In this document: positions 38,321 through 39,079 of the stretch, in pieces
How the letters are laid out: every line of letters starts with the position of its first letter
Numbering within the stretch: position 1 is the first letter of the stretch
Assembly (NCBI GenBank): GCA_023374045.1
Contig: CM041781.1
Span: 147,614,982-147,678,981 of the forward strand
Source of the DNA: Limonium bicolor
Lineage: Eukaryota > Streptophyta > Magnoliopsida > Caryophyllales > Plumbaginaceae
Length of the DNA: 64,000 nucleotides
Reading direction: 5' to 3'
Notes under the pieces: generated by a model
Told to the model about the DNA's origin: nothing
Database searches by the model: none
Seen by the model: the letters and a program-made list of their open reading frames with translations, nothing else
Position numbers and translations under genes: made by a program

Positions 38321-39079
38321 TTAATACTTTCTAAAGGTAAGGTTCAGGCGTCCTGGTTTCATGTGTGTGGCATTGATTATTGCCGGCGGTGCCGTATTCA
38401 ACTTGATCTTGTTGATCCCGTGATACAGCATCCAAGAGTTTCCACCCATGATTAGGACATCTCCTGATCTCAATACTAGTTTCTCTGCGAGGTCCACACG
38501 CTTCTGCTCGCTAAACAGAAATATGGCGTCATCACCAATGGACCAAGACACTACGGGCACTCCTTGTTCAAGAGATTCCGCTGTCTCGTCCTTGTCTTGG
38601 TGTAACCCAAGTCGTCCTTCTTTTTCATAGAAGTTGACGATACCAAGGTCCGCCTCAAGTGAGGGGATTGGTTCATGTTCGCGTTGTTGTGCAAGTTCTA
38701 CTGCTTGTGTGATGAGGGTCTGAAACTCTGGTGGTATTGTCGTTGGCGTCGCTCCATCTTGTGTTCGTGTCTCCTGGTATGTCTTGGTATAAGGATTCCA
38801 GTCCTTTCCCAAGCACATCATCTTCAGCTTCATCTTCGCTCCACCGGGGAATTCGGGTGTGTAAAATCCACCTTGACCCGTTCCTAGCTCGTTGCATCGT
38901 CGGATGATTGAGATTTGCGCTTCGGGTGTCAGGTATCCCTTTAATAAGATCATACCTGGTCGGATGACCTGACACTGTTTGTTGGTGTAGTCGTGGTTGG
39001 TGATGTCGATCTCTTCTTGATTCAAGGTTACCGGTATCGGGTAACAGATGCTAAAACTTCCTATGGTTACAAATTTCAT
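38321..39079 (-). CDS. AlkB-family 2-oxoglutarate/Fe(II) dioxygenase (ALKBH1-like), 252 aa
   Basis: Uninterrupted frame between gag zinc knuckles and protease, same strand. Family enzymes oxidatively remove methyl groups from DNA or RNA bases. Visible features: IRPGMILLKGYLT (39-51), GTGQGGFYTPEF (66-77), LKMMCLGKDWNP (85-96), nucleotide-lid-like region, NFYEKEGRLGLHQDKDE (149-165) with iron ligands H160 and D162, SIGDDAIFLF (180-189), SGDVLIMGG (205-213), third iron ligand H220 in YHGI, and the 2OG-binding RLNLTFR with R244 and R250. The best match from memory is the plant ALKBH1-type group, at full-domain length. W216 replaces the arginine usual before the last histidine, a change explainable by CpG deamination. 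Substrate is unknown. The ATG at 39079 may not be used if the candidate intron 39061-39213 is spliced. Confidence 0.93.
   Translation of the reverse strand: MKFVTIGSFSICYPIPVTLNQEEIDITNHDYTNKQCQVIRPGMILLKGYLTPEAQISIIRRCNELGTGQGGFYTPEFPGGAKMKLKMMCLGKDWNPYTKTYQETRTQDGATPTTIPPEFQTLITQAVELAQQREHEPIPSLEADLGIVNFYEKEGRLGLHQDKDETAESLEQGVPVVSWSIGDDAIFLFSEQKRVDLAEKLVLRSGDVLIMGGNSWMLYHGINKIKLNTAPPAIINATHMKPGRLNLTFRKY

Follow-up and report, generated by a model that had tools for sequence, protein, structure and literature searches.

The closest described parallel to the locus treated here is found in the orchid genus Phalaenopsis, where Ogre/Tat elements, which are plant Ty3/gypsy retrotransposons, carry an acquired AlkB-family 2-ODD domain that nests with ALKBH5 homologues and is active on N6-methyladenosine (m6A) in vitro (Alvarado-Marchena et al. 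2022, PMC9289625). These elements (Gypsy_Pa_2799 and its kin) are abundant, keep the cofactor residues, have a primer-binding site (PBS) of tRNA-Arg type and encode the domain in a separate second open reading frame (ORF2) of 565 amino acids; among 121 plant genomes screened, the domain was found in the element consensuses of no other (PMC9289625). A December 2025 review, in its accessible part, names the orchid case alone (PMC12786077). AlkB domains are also named for Alpha-/Betaflexiviridae and Closteroviridae (PMC9289625), which are parasite-encoded too but belong to RNA viruses, and the likeness is by description only. As for expression by splicing, pea and Medicago Ogre elements hold, between gag-pro and pol, an intron that is removed from part of the transcripts (as cited in the accessible part of PMC6317226). 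Here we consider a window of 64,000 nucleotides from Limonium bicolor (assembly GCA_023374045.1, contig CM041781.1, positions 147,614,982 to 147,678,981 of the forward strand), within which a long terminal repeat (LTR) retrotransposon of the chromovirus type (30594..44744, minus strand, 14,151 bp) holds an AlkB-like frame assigned below to the plant ALKBH1 type. A search of a library of open papers gave, among the matches listed, no description of an ALKBH1-type domain in a chromovirus. Our preferred reading, which we regard as rather probable, is that the chromovirus captured the catalytic part of an ALKBH1-type gene, makes a Gag-AlkB fusion by splicing and uses it to demethylate its own nucleic acid in the particle.

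The frame is an ATG-to-stop ORF of 252 codons on the minus strand (39079..38321), placed between the zinc-knuckle exon of gag and the protease frame, and it matches Pfam PF13532 (2OG-FeII_Oxy_2) with an expect value (E) of 4.3e-42 and 145 bits against a cut-off of 31.2. To follow it beyond the window we searched the 2.92-Gb genome from which the window comes, where the copies fall into the family of the window's element (F1) and two strongly diverged families (F2 and F3). All five cofactor residues named by a first-pass annotation, made from the letters alone, are present in 40/40 aligned F1 rows (the window, 20 copies selected by AlkB and 19 of 20 selected by the zinc knuckle, with L046 dropped), and the HxD...H and R...R pattern is kept in these 40 rows as well as in 24/24 F3 and 12/12 F2 rows. 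By its PF13532 match and its HxD...H and RxxxxxR motifs the frame belongs to the AlkB family of 2-oxoglutarate (2OG)-Fe(II) dioxygenases. The best relative of solved structure by sequence is rice OsALKBH1 (PDB 5xeg, E 2.9e-68), followed by E. coli AlkB (E about 1e-18) and by weaker animal ALKBH1 chains (E 5e-11 and above); no ALKBH5 or FTO appears by name among the 21 solved-structure matches at E<=1. An AlphaFold model built from 33 proteins has a mean predicted local distance difference test score (pLDDT) of 89 and a predicted template modelling score (pTM) of 0.87, and is poorly defined in parts of residues 1-33. Its top fold matches are again OsALKBH1 (5xoi and 5xeg, template modelling (TM) score to target 0.90-0.91), with E. 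coli AlkB reaching up to 0.89 and neither ALKBH5 nor FTO among the best 50 fold matches listed. In the fold alignment the likeness to OsALKBH1 covers the catalytic domain with all ligands at 49-50% identity. Among the best 120 matches listed for each protein search the names include ALKBH1C-, ALKBH1D- and abh1-like, and no ALKBH5, 9 or 10. We therefore assign the frame to the plant ALKBH1 type from these sequence and fold matches, the tree given below having held ALKBH1-type proteins only. In all this the first-pass annotation had judged correctly, having proposed the 252-codon frame with its five residues, its place between zinc knuckle and protease inside a chromovirus and the ALKBH1 type; the best match does lie within the AlkB family.

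Copies of the frame are plentiful. A 29-base active-site probe from F1 matched 3,933 places when up to one mismatch was allowed (0 for the reversed control), and the AlkB search of the genome gave at least 150 scored places at 93-100% identity. A list ranked by AlkB match is biased to intact AlkB, and a fairer F1 sample was drawn by a search with the zinc-knuckle exon, where 40 of the best 150 scored places were picked down the list and 20 of them fetched. AlkB stands at the same site in 20/20 of these, at 94.5-96.8% nucleotide identity (one copy, L046, is broken up by extra sequence). F2 was found by a search with a sunflower ALKBH1-type protein (103 scored places listed, 12 fetched) and F3 by a search with a C-terminal stretch (at least 150 places listed; 24 read, L067-L090, 4 of them flanked and 20 short). 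Over the matched stretches F2 is 56-59% identical to the window in AlkB, 35-47% in protease and about 27-47% in gag exon 1, and the F3 copy L069 is 72% identical in AlkB and 78% in protease. The domain lies between zinc knuckle and protease in all 12 F2 loci, the four flanked F3 loci have the same gag-AlkB-protease order, and taken together AlkB is at the same site in 16/16 of the F2 and F3 loci read. Other copies with the domain at this position, which the first-pass annotation had asked for, therefore exist within its own genome. Because the site is shared by three diverged families, the capture appears to be older than the divergence of these families, in which gag has come down to about one third identity. 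It may be added that F2 and F3 were located through AlkB and are uninformative on AlkB-free sister elements. Within F3, 85 of the best 150 places listed have an open frame of 244-253 codons, and most of the 150 score alike over the C-terminal 115 residues, which suggests a recent burst. Two F3 copies on different scaffolds, L071 (G000 C1) and L072 (G000 C2), are identical over the 885 fetched bases, which could mean that the two arose very recently or that the assembly repeats one piece.

Between F1 and F3, with one copy per family, the AlkB frame has a nonsynonymous rate (dN) of 0.175 and a synonymous rate (dS) of 2.23, the latter near saturation, giving a ratio (omega) of 0.078; the protease of the same pair gives 0.064. 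On this comparison AlkB appears to be constrained about as strongly as the protease, and the dN/dS test proposed by the first-pass annotation comes out as non-neutral. For F1 against F2 the synonymous sites are saturated, the proportions of differing sites being 0.89 for synonymous (pS) and 0.28 for nonsynonymous (pN). Six pairs within F2 gave omega 0.08-0.25, the copies having been chosen by protein similarity, which lowers dN. Within F1 the ratio of nonsynonymous to synonymous variants in the zinc-knuckle sample (20 rows including the window, L046 dropped) is 10:24 for shared variants against 50:33 for singletons (p 0.004), and in all 40 rows 24:53 against 63:38 (p 4e-5). Counts in the wrong frames showed no such depletion, frame +2 leaning the opposite way (p 0.058 and 0.015).

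Several observations weigh against a retained, working enzyme. The singleton/shared test was not significant in the 21 AlkB-selected F1 rows (p 0.34) or in F2 (shared 54:77, singletons 53:58, p 0.36), and in F3 it showed no constraint (shared 17:14, singletons 29:40, p 0.28). The AlkB frame is disrupted in 17/20 of the zinc-knuckle-selected copies. Also, seven indels in each of F1 and F3 recur in 2-4 copies, some of them outside base runs, and some of the recurrent ones fall among copies that are alike in substitutions, so that small lineages spreading with a broken AlkB frame, or a recurrent error, are possible. The same three points, the disrupted frames, the F3 test and the frameshifting indels present in 2-4 copies (L071 and L072 having the same indel), are what speaks for AlkB as an inert hitchhiking passenger. 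This we consider extremely improbable: it is already contradicted by an omega of 0.078, close to the protease value, across a dS of about 2.2, the catalytic residues are intact in every row read in three families, and most disruptions are confined to a single copy. Frameshifting indels number 59 in the 20 F1 copies selected by the zinc knuckle (48 places, 41 of them affected in one row only) and 42 in 23 F3 rows (31 places, 24 of them affected in one row only and 7 in two or three rows). Nothing in these F1 copies and F3 rows indicates that a single large lineage spread with its AlkB broken. The recurrent frame lengths in F3 (232, 163, 186 and 201) were considered as marks of broken lineages, and 15 such copies were read; since the indels counted in the 23 F3 rows are mostly confined to one row, equal frame lengths mostly do not reflect shared descent. 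The recount of recurrent indels leaves our preferred reading slightly weakened and the passenger slightly raised. The many 1-bp indels may be decay or assembly error.

This bears on one claim of the first-pass annotation, namely that gag, reverse transcriptase, integrase and chromodomain have frameshifts and AlkB has none. The AlkB frame of the window is indeed clean; some of the breaks in gag come from intron-like segments, and a clean AlkB is untypical, as a frame free of stops and frameshifts was found in 3/20 of the zinc-knuckle-selected copies. The notion that AlkB alone escaped decay is thereby ruled out, and its intactness in the window copy is chance.

How the frame would be expressed is suggested by the arrangement of gag, for which we propose the following model (all on the minus strand, splice borders marked by a slash). 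Gag exon 1, broken in the window copy, is placed at 40050..40712, with the ATG at 40712 being our choice. A putative intron 1 (39933..40049, CAG/GTAAAT ... TTTCAG/GAG, phase 0) separates it from exon 2 (39653..39932), and a putative intron 2 (39559..39652, AGG/GTAAAT ... CTCAG/GTT, phase 1) leads to exon 3 (39214..39558), which holds the zinc knuckle PF00098 and ends as G/GTAATC in phase 1. Introns 1 and 2 have GT/AG borders and consistent phases. In the flanked F3 loci the intron 1 donor is present in 4/4 and the exact acceptor in 3/4; the F2 loci have a second intron alike, and intron 1 was not found in them with the motif used. Among seven aligned copies intron 1 is rich in indels, and so is one stretch of exon 2.

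The donor at the end of exon 3 would have two partners. Joined to the acceptor ATAG/GA it would remove a short intron 3A (39061..39213, phase 1) and enter an AlkB exon (38321..39060) that ends at its own TAA, an exon indicated by PF13532, by stop conservation and by constraint upstream of Met43. Joined to the protease acceptor CAATAG/GTTGTGG it would remove a long intron 3B (38181..39213, phase 1) and skip AlkB. The donor GT is present in 41/41 F1 rows, and across the three families G/GT is kept in 16/17 rows (none was found in L065); 15/16 of these have it in phase 1, the remaining copy (L055) having lost a base before it. Left unspliced, the gag frame stops a few codons inside intron 3. The AlkB acceptor AG/G occupies the same codon, in phase 1, in 17/17 rows of three families, the motif used having fixed the glycine and not the preceding A. 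The protease acceptor AG is kept in 16/17 rows (L057 is without it), its phase 1 having been confirmed for a single copy of each family, and the AlkB stop TAA is kept in 40/41 F1 rows. Comparative anatomy thus suggests that a single gag donor in phase 1 serves two acceptors of the same phase, that of AlkB (Gag-AlkB) or that of protease (Gag-Pol).

A rival to the fusion is a free accessory protein, which would be made from its own ATG (39079 or Met43) on unspliced or sub-spliced RNA and whose targets would be element RNA or host chromatin, met in the cytoplasm or in the nucleus. The ATG at 39079 occurs in 36/41 F1 rows, which counts against the fusion in that a direct start in F1 is possible, and Met43 is shared by all three family representatives compared. 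The orchid demethylase, moreover, is taken to be expressed independently of Gag-Pol (PMC9289625), and rice ALKBH1 affects chromatin marks according to the accessible part of PMC10469495. Yet the open F3 frames read (251 codons; L069, L086-L090) have no in-frame ATG there and carry a stop codon shortly, by a few codons, 5' of the conserved AG, and the 35 codons from the acceptor to Met43 look constrained (F1-F3 pN 0.26 and pS 0.77; F2 pooled pN 0.071 and pS 0.205). Also, the AlkB and protease acceptors both match the phase of the gag donor. Because some F1 rows lack the ATG at 39079 and the open F3 frames read have none there, the true start of the AlkB exon is probably 39060; the lack of an upstream ATG in F3, taken with the constraint before Met43, argues that translation enters from upstream. 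We consider the free protein unlikely and continue with the spliced Gag-AlkB fusion. A spliced start just before the ATG at 39079 (TAG/ATG) was rejected, as the phase does not fit gag and the site is not seen in F2 or F3.

A further difficulty for the proposed splicing lies 5' of the chosen protease acceptor, where about 120 bases (38298-38181, minus strand) are near-invariant in F1 except for a hotspot at 38275-38272 and are partly alike in F3, and where another phase-compatible AG stands at 38296-38295. This AG, suggested by the invariance in F1, was set aside as protease acceptor since the homologous acceptor in F3 is at 38182-38181. The invariant, would-be intronic bases might act as a signal for splicing or contain an additional start of coding.

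Put together, the preferred reading is as follows. A chromovirus of this plant lineage would long ago have acquired the catalytic part of an ALKBH1-type gene, in intronless form, and retained it as an accessory enzyme. With the exon 3 donor retained in the RNA, Gag would be made; with the donor spliced to the AlkB acceptor, a Gag-AlkB fusion ending at the AlkB stop; with the donor spliced to the protease acceptor, Gag-Pol. AlkB would then be carried into the particle on the nucleic-acid-binding end of Gag and there strip N-linked methyl groups, of the class of N6-methyladenine (6mA), m6A, N1-methyladenine (m1A) and N3-methylcytosine (m3C), from genomic RNA or single-stranded complementary DNA (cDNA), keeping host marking or alkylation damage from blocking packaging, translation or reverse transcription. 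On the evidence above this is a real and conserved captured demethylase that is probably functional. In the accessible text of PMC10469495, rice ALKBH1 removes the methyl group of 6mA from single-stranded DNA in vitro, and as told in the accessible part of a review, the Arabidopsis RNA demethylase ALKBH9B releases ONSEN RNA from stress granules (PMC12786077). The wider form of the proposal, in which the choice among Gag, Gag-AlkB and Gag-Pol by alternative 3' splicing would set the Gag:Pol ratio and the enzyme dose of a particle-borne demethylase and, with the orchid case, point to repeated capture of different AlkB paralogues, is tentative and has in our judgement slightly less than an even chance.

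The function is the least certain step. Fused to Gag, an ALKBH1-type enzyme would come upon just the RNA and the single-stranded cDNA of the element. Removal of methyl groups from these seems the most likely role, with alkylation repair close behind. In the latter, AlkB would mainly repair alkylation damage of the element's nucleic acid and not act on enzymatic host marks; the fold is also close to that of E. coli AlkB, with the TM score already given, and the idea is cited for plant viral AlkBs (PMC9289625). The present observations do not separate repair from mark removal, and as an account of the main function repair is a possibility that we place on the unlikely side.

The PBS (TGGTATCAGAGC, 40923..40934, minus strand) matches over 12 bases what we take to be tRNA-Met, by a tRNA sequence that we assume. 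It lies within a strong predicted hairpin (40934-40902, minus strand, ATCAGAGCG...CGCTCTGAT, -20.5 kcal/mol), which could mask or regulate priming. A tRNA-Met primer might itself be the substrate, with AlkB editing it (for example at m1A58) and so tuning reverse transcription. For this there is the presumed PBS type; human ALKBH1 is linked to tRNA demethylation by a title in a reference list, and m1A58 sets the plus-strand stop of human immunodeficiency virus 1 (HIV-1) in the accessible part of PMC13191261. The PBS match extends over the said 12 bases of the presumed tRNA, and copying of A58 is not required; in the same accessible part, loss of m1A58 in HIV-1 lowers infectivity (PMC13191261). 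Primer editing is therefore very unlikely in our view, and demethylation of the element's own nucleic acid is kept as the preferred role.

As to origin, a tree of 40 proteins joins the eight element AlkBs with P0001, P0002, P0003 and P0005 in one clade (support 100/100), set apart from 28 angiosperm ALKBH1-type proteins, which speaks for a single origin. Within the clade F2 goes with P0002 (86/83) and F1 with P0001/P0003 (100/97). These four are database proteins from small contigs, so that similar elements probably exist elsewhere. The host-specific part is matched by two candidate host ALKBH1 exons (G000 C3:133829143-133829319 and C3:703311-703487), each match ending at query residue 59 of 79, a point past which the element copies run unbroken. 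The pattern fits an intronless capture, as had been supposed, judged from candidate host gene exons only. Compared with plant ALKBH1 proteins, the element protein is without the host N-terminal extension, is intronless and has its own clade. Artemisia P0121 ranked high in the profile search, apparently owing to an internal duplication, and was dropped; a scan of viral contigs with P0002 gave no matches.

The first-pass annotation could not rule out an earlier description, and in part it was right to be careful, as the general idea is already known from the orchid elements (PMC9289625); the present case departs from them in the subfamily, the lineage, the position and the proposed mode of expression. 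The present element, known from sequence alone, is a chromovirus with a PBS presumably of tRNA-Met type and an ALKBH1-type domain in three diverged families, as against the Tat/Ogre elements with tRNA-Arg PBS and ALKBH5-type domain, and it has a chromodomain and no separate ALKBH5-type ORF2, its AlkB lying between zinc knuckle and protease as probably a spliced Gag fusion. Non-chromoviruses are without the chromodomain, as the accessible part of PMC6317226 has it. With pea and Medicago Ogre, as described there, the element would share the splicing of a subset of transcripts to give the full polyprotein; it differs in being a chromovirus and in that the proposed intron holds an alternative coding exon. 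This is apparently a second and independent capture of AlkB by plant retroelements, with another subfamily, lineage and position. A single capture, known from one genus of orchids, might be dismissed as an oddity; another, retained in three families and thousands of copies and between two of them constrained like protease, suggests that methylated bases really do hinder plant retroelements, and it offers a testable system for the effects of m6A and 6mA on retrotransposon RNA and cDNA. The proposed switch between Gag-AlkB and Gag-Pol by splicing, if true, would be an unusual way to express an extra enzyme between gag and pol.

The remaining features of the element are those of a Ty3/gypsy LTR retrotransposon. 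It has a 5' LTR (40940..44744), a 3' LTR of 3,815 bp (30594..34408) and a polypurine tract at the 3' LTR junction (34409..34421), all on the minus strand, and is bordered by the target-site duplication AGGAG on its 5' side (44745..44749) and its 3' side (30589..30593). The order of domains on the minus strand is that of gypsy elements: the protease exon or pol start with RVP_2 (37630..38180), the reverse transcriptase frame (36857..37342, PF00078, pol being broken in the window copy), the RNase H frame (36145..36765, PF17917), the integrase frame (34995..35813, SH3_Tf2-1 above and PF00665 under the cut-off) and a chromodomain at the integrase C-terminus (34823..34999, PF00385, E 5.8e-6, 26.6 bits against a cut-off of 25.1). 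It is a chromovirus because the chromodomain follows the integrase; the clade is presumably Tekay, a plausible label. The two LTRs differ by 43 substitutions in 3,769 aligned columns (Kimura two-parameter divergence 0.0115), and 23 of their 35 indels are of 1 bp; at an assumed rate of 1.3e-8 substitutions per site per year the insertion would be about 0.4 million years old. One LTR holds two units of a repeat of about 128 bases, spaced by 143 bases and 66% identical (32162-32432 and 42508-42635).

Elsewhere in the window, a separate Ty3/gypsy gag frame of 415 amino acids (16431-17675, minus strand; Retrotrans_gag, Ty3_capsid) gave no match to the pieces of the AlkB element at the threshold used, and Rfam and tRNA scans of the window gave no matches. 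Parts of a CACTA-type transposase flank the element on the plus strand (28765-30632 and 45073-45984), with Transpos_assoc and Transposase_21 (tnp2) on one side and DUF4218 on the other, and the element looks to have been inserted into a CACTA transposase gene.
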